The notes under the pieces are model-generated. The model was not told the DNA's origin, made no database searches, and saw nothing but the letters and a program-made list of their open reading frames with translations. Of a stretch of 52,066 nt of DNA, positions 21,623-31,976 are shown piece by piece. How positions within the stretch are numbered: position 1 is the first letter of the stretch; the number at the start of each line of letters is the position of its first letter. Source of the stretch: Acidimicrobiaceae bacterium (GTDB lineage: Bacteria; Actinomycetota; Acidimicrobiia; Acidimicrobiales; RAAP-2); the NCBI GenBank assembly GCA_003138855.1, contig PLHF01000104.1, positions 1 to 52,066 of the forward strand, in the 5' to 3' direction. Position numbers and translations under genes: made by a program.

Positions 21623-22105
21623 ATGGACGAAACACCGGGGCAAGACGGCACGGGCGCTGCCCCCCTCCCACCGGGGTCGTTGGGCGTGGTGATCGTCGAC
21701 CACGGGTCGCGTAGACAGGATGCCAACCGGCGCCACGAGGACTTCGTGCGGGCATGGGCCGCGCGCAGTGCCCACCCCGTCGTGGAGGCGGCCCACATGG
21801 AACTGGCCGAACCTTCCATCGGCACCGCCTTCGACGCGTGCGTGGCGGCCGGCGCCACCACCGTGGTGGTCGCCCCCTACTTCCTGTGGCCGGGGAACCA
21901 CTGGGATCGGGACATCCCCGCGTTGGCGGCCCGGTCGGCTGCCCGCCATCCTGGTGTCCACTACCTGGTGTCGGCTCCGCTCGGGCCCCACCCCCTGCTC
22001 ATGGACATCGTCGAACAGCGCATCGCGTACTGCCTCGCCCATGTGGCCGGTGACGTTCCCGAGTGCGATGTCTGCGCCGGAACCGGCAGTTGCCGCCTGG
22101 TCTGA
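21623..22105 (+). CDS. CbiX/SirB-like chelatase-fold protein
   Basis: 160 residues, single domain. VIVDHGSRRQDANRRHEDFV holds the metal-binding His of class II chelatases, and VVVAPYFLWPGNHWDRDIP has the second His region. It ends in CDVCAGTGSC, a compact Cys motif that could hold a metal or iron-sulfur cluster. Class II chelatases put Co2+ or Fe2+ into sirohydrochlorin for cobalamin or siroheme. No other tetrapyrrole genes are adjacent, so an alternative metal-handling role is possible. One-domain size matches CbiX-short/SirB-like forms that dimerise or have a degenerate half. Confidence 0.82.
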   Translation: MDETPGQDGTGAAPLPPGSLGVVIVDHGSRRQDANRRHEDFVRAWAARSAHPVVEAAHMELAEPSIGTAFDACVAAGATTVVVAPYFLWPGNHWDRDIPALAARSAARHPGVHYLVSAPLGPHPLLMDIVEQRIAYCLAHVAGDVPECDVCAGTGSCRLV

Positions 22106-27384: not shown

Positions 27385-27852
27385 CTACGTGAAGATGATC
27401 TCCCCTCCGGCAGCCATCTCGTAGAATTCGCCGACGGTGATGATGCCCATGACCTGCTCGACCAGGTCGTCCTCGGTGAGCTCGAACAGGTCCACCGAGG
27501 CCTTGCACGCGTAGATCCCCGCCCCGGTGTCGGCGATCATCTCGACGAACTCGGGAATGGGAGGGATGTCGAGCTTCTCCATCTTCTTCTCGAGGTAGTG
27601 GGTCATGACCGAGGACACCCCCGGCAGGCCGCCAGCCATCGTGGCCAGGTGCAGCCCGGGGTTGCCGACGGTGGCCACCTTGATGTGGTCGATCCTGGAC
27701 CGGTGCACGACGTCGAGGCCGAAGAACGTGAAGAAGAGGTTGGCGTCGATCCCCTCGGCTCGGGCACCGTTCGCCATGATCAGCGCCGGGTACACGCCTT
27801 CGAGCGAGCCTTTCGAGACGATGATCGATACCTTTTCGATGGTGTCGCTCAT
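27385..27852 (-). CDS. DsrE/DsrF-like sulfur-carrier protein (DsrE2-type)
   Basis: 155 residues. SIIVSKGSLEGVYPALIMAN and DANLFFTFFGLDVV are the N-terminal DsrE-like strands, followed by TGAGIYACKASVDLFELTED with the single conserved cysteine (Cys116) that carries persulfide in this family. An HTTP-like hydrophobic C-terminus, MAAGGEIIFT, ends the fold. It follows the TusE/DsrC-like gene by ~40 bp in the same direction and has an AAGGAAGG ribosome site. It is likely to relay sulfane sulfur between the SQR-like enzyme and the TusE-like carrier (inference from neighbours). Confidence 0.85.
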   Translation of the reverse strand: MSDTIEKVSIIVSKGSLEGVYPALIMANGARAEGIDANLFFTFFGLDVVHRSRIDHIKVATVGNPGLHLATMAGGLPGVSSVMTHYLEKKMEKLDIPPIPEFVEMIADTGAGIYACKASVDLFELTEDDLVEQVMGIITVGEFYEMAAGGEIIFT

Positions 27853-27891
27853 GGCGCACCTTCCTTTCGTGGTCCGGGACCCGACGAGTGG

Positions 27892-28209
27892 CTAGATGCA
27901 GCCGCGGGGCTTGGGGATGCCGGCGATCTTGGCTGCGATCTTGGCCGGGCCCTTGGGGAAGAGCTGGTAGAGCTCCTTGACCGTGACGCCCGAGGTCTTG
28001 CCGAGGACGCGGACGGTCGGCCCCGTCCCCTTCTCGGCGTACTCCGTCCGCATGAACTTGATGACCTGCCAGTGCGGCTCGGTGAGCTCTTCGATGCCCT
28101 GGGCCCGGGCGATCTCCGGAGCCATGGCCTCGGTCCACTGACCGGGGTCCTCGAAGAACCCCTCGTCGTTGACCTTCACTTCTGTTCCGGCATAGGTGAC
28201 AACGGGCAT
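27892..28209 (-). CDS. TusE/DsrC-like sulfur-carrier protein with one C-terminal Cys
   Basis: 105 residues: NDEGFFEDPGQWTEAMAPEI, the helical WQVIKFMRTEYAEKGTGPTV core and the swinging C-terminal arm ending PKPRGCI. The penultimate Cys104 (CysA of DsrC) is present, while the second arm cysteine of true DsrC, 11 residues earlier, is Ala93. That makes it TusE-like, able to accept persulfide but not to form the DsrC trisulfide. AAAGGAG precedes ATG 28209. It is flanked by the SQR-like and DsrE-like genes on the same strand. Confidence 0.9.
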   Translation of the reverse strand: MPVVTYAGTEVKVNDEGFFEDPGQWTEAMAPEIARAQGIEELTEPHWQVIKFMRTEYAEKGTGPTVRVLGKTSGVTVKELYQLFPKGPAKIAAKIAGIPKPRGCI

Positions 28210-28250
28210 GGTCGGCTCCTTTCAGCTGATCCGGTGGGTGGCGCGGGCTG

Positions 28251-29495
28251 TCATGGGACGCCCTCTTTGTCCTTGCCCCGGGTGGGCATCGCCGAGCCGA
28301 CACCGGGCAGGTCGTGACCTGGCAGGAGGCTGTGCCAGTAGAGGGACTGGAACATCAGCTTGCCCAGATGGTTGAGCCGCGACTCCTTGAGCAGCGGGAG
28401 GCCCACGCCGGCGGGGAAGTGGCCCGGGAGGGGCTCGACGTCGTAGTTGAAGTCGATCAGCAACGCCTTGCCGAACCCGGTCTCGATGAAGCAGTTGGCG
28501 TGCCCGTCGTAGCTGCCGTCGAGCGGCTCGTCGGCCAGGAAGCGCCGGATGTTCTCGACGAGCACCTCGCCTTCGAAGTGGGTGACCGACCCGGCCTTGG
28601 ACGTGGGCACGCCGGCGGCATCGCCGATGGCGAAGACATTGGGCTTGGCGGTGGACTGCAGCGTGTGCACGTCGACCGGCACGAAGCCCAGGTCGTCACC
28701 GAGGCCCGGGGACCGCGACACGTAGGCCGCTCCTCCATGGAGCGGCACCACCACGGCCAGGTCGAAGCCGACTTCGCGCCCGTCGTAGGACACCAATCGC
28801 CCGCCGGGCCCGTCGACCTCCCCGGTGTTGAACTCGGTCACGAGGGCGACGCCCTTCTCCTCGAGCAGGCCGGCCAGTCTCGCGGCCGCCACCGGCTTGG
28901 TGAACGCCCCGTCCAGCGGGGTCACGTACGTCAGTTCGACGCGCTCGCGAACTCCTTGCTGTTGGAAGAACCAGTCCGCCAGGAAGCAGAACTCGAGGGG
29001 GGCGACCGGGCACTTGATGGGCATGTCGACCACGTTGACCACCACCCGGCCTCCCTCGAAGTACTCGAGTGCGTCATGGAGGCCGGCCGCTCCAACCCGG
29101 TCGTAGAAGGTGAAGACCTTCTCCATCCACCCCGGACCGGTGAGGCCCTCGGTCTCCTCCTCGACCAGTACGCACCCGGTGGCGATGACCAGCACGTCGT
29201 ACTCGAGCACGGTGCCGTCCTGGAGTTGCACGCTGTCCGACTCGGTGTCCACGTGGTCGATCGGGACCTGCCGGAACTCGATTCCCTTGTGCAGCTGGTG
29301 CGCTCGGGACCGCACGATCTCGTCGGCGTGGGCCAGGCCGAAGGGGACGAACAGCAGCCCCGGCTGGTAGACGTGGGCATCGTCCTGGTCGACAACCACG
29401 ATCTCGAGGTCGTCGGTGGGATAGAGGCGCCGCAGCCGGTTGGCACTCAGGGTGCCTCCGGTGCCGCCTCCGAGGATGACGACTCGCTTGGGCAT
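28251..29495 (-). CDS. Sulfide:quinone oxidoreductase-like flavoprotein
   Basis: 414 residues. FAD-binding VVILGGGTGGTLSANRLRR at the N-terminus, VLVIATGC, a second dinucleotide region and the FAD/quinone motif VFAIGDAAGVPTSKAGSVTH. Four cysteines stand out: 108, 162 (IKCPVAPLEF), 170 and 335 (HANCFIETG). Cys162 and Cys335 match the redox pair of SQR enzymes, which oxidise sulfide to sulfane sulfur and pass electrons to quinone at the membrane. It is first in the cluster with TusE-like and DsrE-like genes. Related FAD/NAD(P) oxidoreductases have been labelled SQR-like without proof, so substrate is inferred. Confidence 0.85.
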   Translation of the reverse strand: MPKRVVILGGGTGGTLSANRLRRLYPTDDLEIVVVDQDDAHVYQPGLLFVPFGLAHADEIVRSRAHQLHKGIEFRQVPIDHVDTESDSVQLQDGTVLEYDVLVIATGCVLVEEETEGLTGPGWMEKVFTFYDRVGAAGLHDALEYFEGGRVVVNVVDMPIKCPVAPLEFCFLADWFFQQQGVRERVELTYVTPLDGAFTKPVAAARLAGLLEEKGVALVTEFNTGEVDGPGGRLVSYDGREVGFDLAVVVPLHGGAAYVSRSPGLGDDLGFVPVDVHTLQSTAKPNVFAIGDAAGVPTSKAGSVTHFEGEVLVENIRRFLADEPLDGSYDGHANCFIETGFGKALLIDFNYDVEPLPGHFPAGVGLPLLKESRLNHLGKLMFQSLYWHSLLPGHDLPGVGSAMPTRGKDKEGVP

Positions 29496-29701
29496 CTGTC
29501 CATCCTGGCGTGCCGCGACGCCGGCGGGTAGGGCATTTCGTCCCTTCTTCCGCGCCGGTGAAGGGCGCGTTCTGGCAGGTGAGAGCCTGTGTCGGCTACT
29601 CAAGTGCCCTGTGGGCATCCCGCCCCCGGCACCGGCCGGTCCGATCCAGGCATCCCGTCAGCCGTCTGCGGAGTGATACCCCAGGGCGTAGGTGCAGAAG
29701 A

Positions 29702-29875
29702 GTGACATGCCGGAAGTGCGGTCGTCCGTCGTGGAAGGGCTGCGGTGCTCACGTGGAGCAGGTGCTCCGCGACGTACCGCTTGCTGAACGTTGCCAGTGC
29801 CGGACCGAGGAGGCTCCCGCCGAGCGGCGCTTCTGGGCGTCCCGCTCGTCGATGACGGCGGGGAAGCAGGAGTGA
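29702..29875 (+). CDS. Small Cys-rich (zinc-ribbon-like) protein
   Basis: 57 residues from GTG 29702. VTCRKCGRPSWKGCGAHVEQ, then VLRDVPLAERCQCR, is a compact pattern of Cys-x2-Cys ... Cys-Gly-x-His ... Cys-x-Cys that is common among small actinobacterial proteins and likely binds zinc. The stop overlaps the GTG start of the next reading frame (GTGA), so it was coupled to the CoA-disulfide reductase-like gene that is now broken. It is divergent from the SQR-like gene. Function unknown; a metal- or thiol-linked role is suggested only by its neighbours. Confidence 0.65.
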   Translation: MTCRKCGRPSWKGCGAHVEQVLRDVPLAERCQCRTEEAPAERRFWASRSSMTAGKQE

Positions 29876-30193
29876 GGCCACCGAGGGCGACGGCGGAGAG
29901 CGGGACAGCGGATCGGACGAGGCGTGTGGTGATCATCGGGGGCGTCGCCGGAGGGATGTCGACGGCGACGCGGCTCCGCCGGCTCGACGCCAGGGTCGAC
30001 AGCGAGGTCGTCGCCATCGACCGGGCCCGTGGTCGTCTACTGCGAAGTGGGCCGGCGAGGGCACACGGCGACCGCGTTGCTGCGCGAGCTCGGAGTCGAG
30101 GCCCGCAATCTCGATGGCGGCTACAGGACCTGGTTCGCTGCGACCTGCGCCCGGGCGCAGGTCGCAGCGATCGTCCCTACGCCAGCTTCGTGA
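29872..30193 (+). pseudogene. Remnant of CoA-disulfide reductase-rhodanese fusion (internal deletion)
   Basis: The 5' part (GTG 29872, same frame to about 30018) encodes VVIIGGVAGGMSTATRLRRL, the FAD-binding start of CoA-disulfide reductase-like proteins. From about 30026, in a different frame, comes PVVVYCEVGRRGHTATALLR then ELGVEARNLDGGYRTW, the C-terminal rhodanese domain of the same fusion family, ending at TGA 30191. The ~400 residues that should lie between (most of the reductase) are gone. This is the cleanest example of gene decay in the window, and it lies beside the sulfur cluster that such an enzyme would serve. Confidence 0.8.
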
Positions 30194-30327
30194 AGAGCCG
30201 CTGGACCTCGTCGATCGGGGAGCCGGCAGCTTCGGCGTCGTCGGGGTGCTCGATGCAGTACCCGAGGCCGTTGGCGATGAGCCGGAACCCGGGGGGGAAA
30301 TGCCTGGTCAAGCCCGAGAGTTTGCAT
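30177..30327 (-). pseudogene. Small frameshifted ORF, unknown
   Basis: On the minus strand ATG 30327 gives MQTLGLDQAF. After a run of seven C (plus-strand Gs near 30292-30298) the sensible frame changes to PPGFRLIANGLGYCIEHPDD and AEAAGSPIDEVQRLFTKLA before a stop at 30177. The two parts read as one protein of ~50 residues if one base of the run is ignored. The homopolymer makes a sequencing error as likely as a true mutation. Family not recognised; the 3' end overlaps the rhodanese remnant. Confidence 0.4.
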
Positions 30328-30401
30328 CCCGTTCACCTTCCGGTCACGCTTCACCACGGGGGAACGTTCGGTGCGTTGTTCCGGGTAGCAGAGGGGGACC
30401 G

Positions 30402-31976
30402 TTGAGACCAGGGCCGGAAGGCAGTACGGCGAGGGGAACCGGTCCGGCGTTCGATCGGCGACTTTTTCTGGGAGGAGCGTTGGCTGCGGGCACCGGTGCC
30501 CTGTTGTCGGCATGCGGATCGCCCTCCACGGTATCCAAGGCTGCGTCGACCGCTCCGGCCGGATCGGATCTGGGGGCCATCGAGCACGTGGTGTTCCTGA
30601 TGCAGGAGAACCGGTCGTTCGACCACTACTTCGGCTCCTACCCGGGAGTTCGGGGGTTCGACGACCACCCTGCGGGAAACCTCGGCGCGTTCTCCCAGCC
30701 CTATGCCGCGAATGCCACCCGGTCGCCGGTCGGTCGCCAACTGCCGTTCCGCCTCGAGGTAGCCTCCGATCAGGGTGAGTGCACCCATGACCTGAGCCAC
30801 GATTGGCTGCCTCAGCACCTCTGCCGCGGGGGCGGCTCGATGGACGCGTTCGTGAGCACCCACACCTCGCCCCAGTTGGAGGGCCCGGTCAACGGTGTTC
30901 TCACCATGGGCTACTACACCCGTTCCGATCTGCCGTACCACTACGCGCTGGCCGATGCCTTCACCATCTGTGACGGCTACCACTGTTCGATCATGGGACC
31001 CACCCACCCCAACCGGTTGATGTCGATCTCGGGGACCATCGACCCTTCGGGGACGCACGGCGGGCCGGTGCTCATCACCAACCCGTCACCCGATGCGCGG
31101 TTCAGTGTCGACTGGACGACCATGCCCGAGGTGCTCGAGGACGCGGGCGTGTCGTGGAAGGTCTACACGCCACCAGGTCCGGCTTTCCGGGTGAGCTCCC
31201 CGGAGGTGCTGTACGTCTCCGATGCCATACTGCCGTACTTCTCCCAGTACTCGGACCCGAGCTCGCCGCTGTACCAGAAGGCGTTCAACCCGATCTTCCC
31301 CGACACCTTCACCCAGGATGTGCGGTCGGGGACCCTACCCAAGGTGTCGTGGATCATCCCTCCGCTGGGCTACGACGAGCATCCGCCGGCACCGCCGGCC
31401 CTCGGAGCCTGGGTCATCGACCAGGTGCTCCAGACACTGACCTCCAATGAGGACGTGTGGTCGAAGACGGTCCTGTTCGTCATGTACGACGAGAACGACG
31501 GGTTCTTCGACCATGTGGCACCACCGGTGGCTCCCCCCGGCACTTCGGGGGAGTACCTGACCGTGCAGCCCCTTCCCGCCGACGCCCAAGGGGTGGCGGG
31601 GCCGCTCGGACTGGGATTCCGGGTGCCGATGATCGTGGTCTCGCCGTTCAGCCGCGGGGGCTATGTCTCGTCGGAGACGTTCGACCACACCTCCCAGCTC
31701 CGGTTCCTCGAAGAGCGCTTCGGGGTGAAGGCGCCGAACATCTCGGCCTGGCGACGCAGCACGGTCGGCAACCTCGTCGGCACCCTACGAATGGGCAGTG
31801 CGCAGACGTCGCCGCCGGTCCTTCCGTCCACGTCCAACGACACCGTGGCGTACGTCGACTCCCTCGGTTGCCAGGCCGGCGACATCCTCGAGGTCAACAG
31901 CAGCCAGCCTCCGTATCCGCTACCCGATCCGCAGGTCATGCCGACCCAGGAGCCTGGCGCTCCGAAGCGGGTCTGA
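30402..31976 (+). CDS. Tat-exported phospholipase C / acid phosphatase family protein
   Basis: 524 residues from TTG 30402 (AGAGGGGG just upstream). The N-terminus FDRRLFLGGALAAGTGALLS followed by ACGS combines a twin-arginine signal with a lipobox Cys, so a Tat-exported lipoprotein is predicted. The mature enzyme shows the PLC/AcpA signatures FLMQENRSFDHYFGSYPG, CDGYHCSIMGPTHPNRLMS, PPLGYDEHPP and VMYDENDGFFDHVAPP, which supply metal and nucleophile residues. Such enzymes hydrolyse phospholipids or phosphomonoesters outside the cell to obtain phosphate or choline. It is shorter than mycobacterial Plc at the C-terminus, where the usual extra C-terminal domains are missing, closer to AcpA-type proteins. 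Confidence 0.87.
   Translation: MRPGPEGSTARGTGPAFDRRLFLGGALAAGTGALLSACGSPSTVSKAASTAPAGSDLGAIEHVVFLMQENRSFDHYFGSYPGVRGFDDHPAGNLGAFSQPYAANATRSPVGRQLPFRLEVASDQGECTHDLSHDWLPQHLCRGGGSMDAFVSTHTSPQLEGPVNGVLTMGYYTRSDLPYHYALADAFTICDGYHCSIMGPTHPNRLMSISGTIDPSGTHGGPVLITNPSPDARFSVDWTTMPEVLEDAGVSWKVYTPPGPAFRVSSPEVLYVSDAILPYFSQYSDPSSPLYQKAFNPIFPDTFTQDVRSGTLPKVSWIIPPLGYDEHPPAPPALGAWVIDQVLQTLTSNEDVWSKTVLFVMYDENDGFFDHVAPPVAPPGTSGEYLTVQPLPADAQGVAGPLGLGFRVPMIVVSPFSRGGYVSSETFDHTSQLRFLEERFGVKAPNISAWRRSTVGNLVGTLRMGSAQTSPPVLPSTSNDTVAYVDSLGCQAGDILEVNSSQPPYPLPDPQVMPTQEPGAPKRV

Follow-up and report, generated by a model that had tools for sequence, protein, structure and literature searches.

The DNA analysed here, referred to as the window, is a 52,066-nucleotide stretch from an Acidimicrobiaceae bacterium that carries three adjacent minus-strand genes (27385–29495) for a sulfide:quinone reductase (SQR) family flavoprotein, a DsrC-family sulfur carrier and a DsrE-family sulfurtransferase. 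The first gene (28251–29495) encodes the 414-residue SQR, with Cys162 and Cys335 as predicted catalytic residues, the latter in an HANC motif. The second (27892–28209) encodes a single-cysteine DsrC of 105 residues, which ends in PRGCI (Cys104) and has Ala93 at the position of the second DsrC cysteine. The product of the third (27385–27852) is a 155-residue member of PF13686 with a conserved Cys116. Gaps of ~40 bp separate the genes, and a purine-rich stretch resembling a ribosome-binding site lies just 5' of each of the three proposed starts. A longer open reading frame (ORF) starting at 29618 is possible for the SQR. A promoter scan of the locus found none, and terminator-like matches numbered 3 against 1.5 expected. 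SQR and DsrC clearly match solved structures by sequence, and DsrE does so moderately well.

By family, the flavoprotein is a type III SQR, and sulfide:quinone activity is predicted for it. It scores 556.5 bits against NCBIfam NF049943 (type III SQR; curated cut-off 525). Residues 4–394 align with mitochondrial SQOR structures, which we take to be human and which are the closest solved SQRs; Cys162 and Cys335 both fall on SQOR cysteines. Two catalytic cysteines, Cys159 and Cys331/339, are also reported for described type III SQRs (PMC13047784, PMC10989961). The carrier belongs to the TusE/DsrC/DsvC family, with 118.5 bits against PF04358 (cut-off 24.9), 99.2 bits against TIGR03342 (cut-off 53.5) and the penultimate cysteine of the family. 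The third protein scores 103.6 bits against PF13686 (cut-off 25) and also exceeds the cut-off of PF02635; against the DsrE2 equivalog NF047629 it stays below the cut-off (89.4 vs 210 bits).

The distribution of the trio was followed in three samples. The relatives set consists of 61 genomes, namely the window's own genome (94% complete) and 60 relatives; a close SQR in this set has at least 52% identity, and the next matches lie at ~34%. The named-locus set is a selected one, comprising the best 80 of at least 587 confirmed matches found by two peptide patterns. The phylum sample is an even draw of 198 genomes. Alignments built from the relatives and named loci hold 100 SQR rows (95 distinct, owing to five identical pairs), 94 DsrC rows and 92 DsrE rows. 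Among the matches listed, the nearest named relatives of the window trio are metagenome-assembled genomes (MAGs) of Acidimicrobiales, which makes an uncultured acidimicrobial actinobacterium the probable source; the phylum of the sampled genomes is taken from this placement.

The trio is a real, operon-like conserved unit. DsrC is present in 75 of the 80 named loci and both partners in 74; the three genes of all 74 share a strand and run SQR-DsrC-DsrE, the median gaps being 45 and 42 bp. These loci come from Acidimicrobiia, Streptomyces, Lentzea, Actinophytocola and Thermoleophilia, and from MAGs labelled Dormiibacterota, Gemmatimonadota, Planctomycetota, Acidobacteriota, Deltaproteobacteria and Ideonella, single ones of which may be mis-binned. 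Within the relatives set, 20 genomes have a close SQR and 19 of those have DsrC beside it. A whole-genome search found DsrC in exactly these 19 genomes and in no others (hypergeometric p 7e-15, a value that ignores relatedness). DsrE is whole beside 16 of the 20 close SQRs, lies in two pieces in L010 and is cut by the contig edge in L022; the contig ends inside DsrC in L012, and L020 has neither partner. DsrC exceeds the cut-off in 26 of the 198 phylum-sample genomes. In 15 of them, an SQR of at least 537 bits is no more than 0.9 kb away and DsrE adjoins, and every genome with such an SQR (15/15) has both partners beside it. The other 11 fall into two families, and their best DsrC has the classical second cysteine.

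No fourth core gene emerged when ORFs of at least 70 residues were clustered from the 80 named loci and a 21.5-kb stretch of the window. Most clusters were shadow ORFs of the trio; apart from these, the widest were an unresolved cluster, scattered in position over 21 loci, and those of DUF302, thioredoxin and PIG-L, each found in 8–10 loci. All three proteins are present in 92 rows; over 83 of these, left after removal of 4 duplicates and 5 fragmentary rows, pairwise distances of SQR, DsrC and DsrE correlate (r 0.60–0.68; none of 1000 shuffles as high). Shared ancestry alone would also be expected to give such a correlation.

The cysteines of all three proteins are conserved far beyond chance. 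Of the 100 SQR rows, 98 retain Cys162 and 97 retain Cys335. One of the two search patterns contains Cys162, and its conservation in the named loci is therefore partly due to selection; in the phylum sample, which was not selected by pattern, all 15 SQRs have both cysteines. The penultimate cysteine of DsrC is kept in 92 of 92 rows with the tail present (two more are cut by contig ends), and Cys116 of DsrE in 89 of 90; the single deviating row (L069) contains an unreadable codon. At the second DsrC position, the 92 rows have alanine (90) or serine (2) and never cysteine. This agrees with the report of Stockdreher et al. that alanine, serine or threonine almost always takes this position in organisms lacking DsrAB (PMC3397948). 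An earlier, sequence-only reading of this DNA had placed the three ORFs on one strand with their four cysteines, called the flavoprotein SQR-like, noted that the carrier lacks the second arm cysteine, and tied its proposal to alignment of the flavoprotein within SQR families and to conservation of the trio as a unit in relatives; all of these points hold.

Further DsrC copies occur away from the trio. The window's own genome has a second DsrC-family protein (L134:849–1208, G000:C49), whose tail is altered after the PEPR motif and lacks the penultimate cysteine; within 5 kb are methyltransferase-like and PIG-L-like ORFs (both recognized by eye) and a tandem rhodanese. Six of the 11 phylum-sample genomes with a two-cysteine DsrC also have extra copies. 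Two of these were read: L173 (G180) is single-cysteine and L174 (G085) has neither tail cysteine.

Loss of a catalytic cysteine coincides with absence of the partner. Two SQRs have lost Cys162 and three have lost Cys335, and none of these five (of 95 distinct rows) has DsrC beside it. By comparison, DsrC lies beside 89 of the 90 distinct SQRs with both cysteines, and the sequence of the exception (L061) ends 38 bp after the SQR (Fisher p 1e-7, again ignoring relatedness). The genome with the Gly335 SQR (G062) also has, on a separate contig, a full trio whose SQR keeps both cysteines. In G064, home of L111, a divergent DsrC-DsrE pair sits at a contig edge, where any SQR neighbor would be off the contig. 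Such co-loss, though it involves few events, fits a cysteine-based transfer of sulfur from SQR to its partners.

Elsewhere in the phylum, the position of DsrC is occupied by TusA, an exchange that the sequence-only reading had not anticipated. In all seven SQR-x-DsrE loci read from the phylum sample (L196–L198, L200, L201, L203, L204), TusA is the middle gene, flanked by SQR and DsrE in the same orientation; gene order and strand are those of the trio, and the carrier differs. The SQRs of TusA-slot loci are more distant (35–39% identity), and three loci (L202, L145, L146) have the reversed order DsrE-TusA-SQR. TusA was confirmed by Pfam (PF01206) for L203 and for the loci of G021 and G025; the other assignments rest on the CPxP motif.

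Comparable layouts are known. The yrk cluster of B. licheniformis (yrkD-pdo) has an SQR with DsrE, TusA and rhodanese, the SQR being paired with a persulfide dioxygenase (PDO), and in the cst system of S. aureus DsrE, TusA and rhodanese are fused in CstA (PMC9918477). As in these clusters, an SQR is linked in the trio with a member of the DsrE family and with a small carrier that has one thiol, and genes for a CsoR-family protein, rhodanese and thioredoxin surround some trio loci. Unlike them, it has a single-cysteine DsrC in place of TusA (which is over the cut-off in none of the 19 genomes of the relatives set that have the trio), its core comprises only three genes, and 12 of these 19 genomes have no near-full-length PDO-like match. 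Because TusA fills the same slot elsewhere and the cst/yrk layout is known, the trio is best described as an SQR-TusA-DsrE-type module with DsrC for TusA. The module is not a new kind; what is new is DsrC in the TusA slot. No SQR-DsrC-DsrE module is described in the titles and abstract openings that searches of the open PMC literature brought up (a scope that leaves subscription papers and preprints aside). The module is little described.

Two further systems invite comparison. The DsrEFH-DsrC relay of Allochromatium vinosum likewise has a DsrE-family donor and a penultimate-cysteine DsrC acceptor (PMC3397948). The trio differs in having one DsrE-family protein instead of DsrEFH, a DsrC without the second cysteine and a fixed linkage to SQR, and no dsrA was found. 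The CsoR-PDO-rhodanese circuit of Streptomyces coelicolor resembles the trio loci in being an actinobacterial system of sulfane-sulfur homeostasis with a CsoR-like sensor. It is contrasted in its report with SQR-containing, H2S-oxidizing circuits, and the part of that report considered here names no DsrC or DsrE (PMC7533328).

The carrier could in principle be a TusE, the genes then serving tRNA 2-thiouridine synthesis. TusE, too, is a single-cysteine protein, and the TIGR03342 cut-off is exceeded. Against the TusE equivalog NF008562, however, the window DsrC reaches 82.9 of the 191 bits of the cut-off, and among solved structures DsrC/DsvC entries match it with 73–88 bits and 7syb, the only match labelled a sulfurtransferase, with 31. 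TusA exceeds the cut-off in four of the 61 genomes and DsrH/TusB was found in one, none of them among the 19 with the trio; within the 61, DsrC is restricted to genomes with a trio-type SQR. None of the four TusA genomes has DsrC, a mutual exclusion that is not significant (p 0.21). We rejected tRNA thiolation as the main role on the unreached TusE cut-off and the absence of TusA and TusB from the 19 trio genomes (mnmA was not searched), and consider it extremely improbable.

Energy-conserving sulfur oxidation, with DsrC feeding reverse Dsr or sHdr, draws on the known function of DsrC as the substrate carrier of DsrAB in sulfur oxidizers (PMC3397948). The search for dsrA gave no match over the cut-off in the 61 genomes (nor in any of 14 control genomes, so that a positive control is lacking; dsrB was not searched), despite weak matches to other sulfite/nitrite-reductase-like proteins in 31. 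The second DsrC cysteine, missing from all 92 rows, is present in the 11 phylum-sample genomes with the other DsrC type. Together, the missing cysteine and the missing dsrA set the carrier apart from DsrC of dissimilatory sulfur metabolism, and the lack of dsrA and TusA matches over the cut-off, and of DsrH/TusB, in the 19 trio genomes makes both reverse Dsr and TusE-type tRNA thiolation unlikely. No small cytosolic HdrB of the sHdr type was seen in the window's own genome, the only one examined for it. Its PF02754 proteins are a probably membrane-bound protein of 702 residues that has Fe-S domains, and an ORF of ~526 residues beside Fur-like and rubrerythrin-like ORFs (by eye). Reverse Dsr was rejected as the main role on the dsrA and cysteine results, and sHdr on the lack of an sHdr-type HdrB in the own genome; we judge either to be very improbable. 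The statement of the sequence-only reading that no dsrAB or sHdr genes are in sight thus stands for dsrA and, in the own genome, for sHdr-type HdrB, within the limits of the searches just given.

Genes around the trio are variable and mostly of sulfane-sulfur type: at least one of 15 tested neighbors occurs near 27 of the 80 named loci. The counts are CsoR-family 11, thioredoxin 10, DUF302 10, PIG-L 8, metallo-β-lactamase (MBL)-rhodanese 8, CoA-disulfide-reductase (CoADR)-rhodanese 7 (three at 29–33% identity), small rhodanese 7, ArsR 5, and 1–2 for others. An intact CoADR/rhodanese fusion, divergent from the SQR, is found in G009 and G011; in G009 it is followed by a CsoR-like gene. The divergent side of the G041 locus has a CsoR-like gene together with a PDO-like MBL-rhodanese. 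The window retains only short pieces of such genes directly upstream of the SQR (29875–30290). The fusion, on the plus strand and divergent from the SQR (29875–30190), has decayed to two remnants in different frames (29875–30027 and 29978–30190), and a minus-strand remnant (30180–30290) corresponds to the C-terminal part of a CsoR/CstR-like repressor that is full-length in G009, G004 and G041. One CsoR-family neighbor that was read has Cys35 and Cys64 and no histidine at what is presumably the CsoR copper-ligand position. The neighborhood points to sulfide or sulfane-sulfur homeostasis with a variable sink, alongside which there may be energy gain via the quinone pool. Of the outcomes among which the sequence-only reading had not chosen, tRNA thiolation is disfavored, detoxification or homeostasis favored and energy gain possible.

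The same neighborhood bears on an alternative in which SQR gives its sulfur to a small acceptor such as CoA, mycothiol, cysteine or sulfite, without direct transfer to a protein, and DsrE and DsrC act only downstream, feeding a dioxygenase, a rhodanese or biosynthesis. The acceptor of human SQOR is a low-molecular-weight thiol or sulfite, and the closest solved SQRs are mitochondrial SQOR entries. The CoADR/rhodanese genes beside some trios, decayed beside that of the window, fit a CoA persulfide intermediate; moreover, the B. licheniformis cluster pairs SQR with PDO, and its source gives the roles of DsrE and TusA there as unknown (PMC9918477). On the other hand, A. vinosum DsrEFH and DsrC took no sulfur from glutathione persulfide or thiosulfate in the reported assays (PMC3397948), and only the trio is conserved in almost all 80 loci, while other genes come and go. 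We regard this alternative as rather unlikely, although the most serious of those considered.

The carriers might instead supply biosynthesis of Fe-S clusters or thio-cofactors, or serve in sulfane-sulfur signaling or regulation. That no single downstream sink is conserved, and that CsoR-family genes lie near 11 of the 80 loci, would suit such a role. The strict pairing with a sulfide-oxidizing enzyme argues against it, as does the lack of any biosynthetic gene among the conserved neighbors. A close SQR is absent from 41 of the 61 genomes and is therefore not essential for biosynthesis. A role of this kind appears improbable.

We propose that the trio is an operon-like, sulfide-detoxifying relay that keeps sulfur protein-bound, with DsrC replacing the TusA of cst/yrk-type systems; the mechanism is plausible, and we hold this reading with moderate confidence. 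SQR, at the cytoplasmic face of the membrane, would oxidize H2S and pass two electrons via flavin adenine dinucleotide to the quinone pool, retaining the sulfur as sulfane sulfur on Cys162/Cys335. Cys116 of DsrE would accept this sulfur and load the penultimate Cys104 of DsrC, which might then hand it to a user that depends on the species: a persulfide dioxygenase or rhodanese where present, and possibly biosynthesis elsewhere. The order SQR, DsrE, DsrC is preferred because DsrEFH loads DsrC, one-way, in published assays: according to Stockdreher et al., the penultimate cysteine is the only one in DsrC that DsrEFH loads (PMC3397948), and Plum-Jensen et al. found TusA-DsrEFH transfer to be bidirectional and DsrEFH-to-DsrC transfer one-way (PMC13293266).

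Several points weigh against the proposed relay. Since DsrC occupies the TusA slot, sulfur could instead pass from SQR to DsrC and then to DsrE, although DsrC gave no sulfur to DsrEFH in the assays reported (PMC3397948, PMC13293266). SQR might hand its sulfur to a low-molecular-weight thiol or sulfite, with DsrE and DsrC acting later. Fifty-three of the 80 named loci have none of the 15 tested neighbors in the flanking sequence available, and some of the other 27 have only weak or general ones. Near-full-length MBL-rhodanese (PDO-like) matches are found in only seven of the 19 trio genomes (the own genome among them, at 34% identity), so no common sulfur sink was found. The tree requires only two independent changes for the pattern of cysteine and partner loss, which is therefore supportive, not decisive; one of the five SQRs concerned (L104) has only 180 bp of contig after it, and its home genome has no DsrC anywhere. 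The single-cysteine DsrC of L173 lies away from any trio-type SQR, in a genome (G180) without an SQR match at E 1e-60.

In a broader form that we hold only tentatively, SQR to DsrE to single-cysteine DsrC could be a widespread closed channel of protein-bound sulfur that replaces glutathione or CoA persulfide, with DsrC taking over the position of TusA in a setting that involves neither dissimilatory sulfur metabolism nor tRNA thiolation. In organisms without Dsr, single-cysteine DsrC proteins are often annotated as TusE or remain without an explanation. In the trios of Streptomyces, Lentzea, Acidimicrobiia and MAGs of several other phylum labels, such proteins are almost invariably accompanied by an SQR whose two cysteines are intact. 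The trio thereby suggests a function for DsrC in the absence of DsrAB that can be put directly to the test; it also bears on the identity of the SQR sulfur acceptor in bacteria without glutathione. The exchange of TusA for DsrC at one gene position amounts to a clean natural experiment on how specific sulfur carriers are. A DsrC match alone is no indicator of dissimilatory sulfur metabolism.

The family assignment of the SQR also touches on selenium. A 2026 review gives an HxxU motif for NF049943, described as type III SQR, selenoprotein subtype (PMC13188914). The window SQR exceeds the cut-off of this family and has HANC at the HxxU position, but with cysteine (Cys335) instead of selenocysteine and with no in-frame TGA. 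The automatic label "selenoprotein subtype" would therefore be wrong for it, the window protein being the cysteine form. An in-frame TGA exactly at the Cys335 position, probably encoding selenocysteine, is found in related SQRs (40–44% identity) of six phylum-sample genomes (L190–L195, in G085, G124, G147, G158, G201 and G099). These type III homologues come from genomes with a two-cysteine DsrC; one of them (G099) has the SQR beside dsrC, and that DsrC is of the two-cysteine type. TGA codons in low-identity matches from three relatives (G015, G034, G038) were dropped as evidence of selenocysteine on the basis of the alignments: the TGA is a stop near the C-terminus in L024 and L025, and none lies in the aligned stretch of L026. 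The window SQR has an additional Cys108, shared with one other of the 100 trio-type rows (L110) and with the TGA-bearing SQRs. A single TAA stop interrupts the SQR frame of the trio in L181 (G198), where DsrC and DsrE are readable, which may reflect recent decay or an assembly error.

A second sulfur locus in the own genome (L135, G000:C25:28000–38000) holds a thioredoxin-like ORF, DUF302, a distant SQR-like flavoprotein (28%), a PF03601 membrane protein, a LysR-like ORF and a CoADR-like ORF with a rhodanese domain. In the window, a CbiX-family (sirohydrochlorin chelatase-like) gene lies ~5 kb from the trio (21623–22105), and beyond the decayed upstream region is an ORF (30114–31976) with a phosphoesterase-family domain (PF04185, phospholipase C-like), whose true start is probably well inside the ORF.

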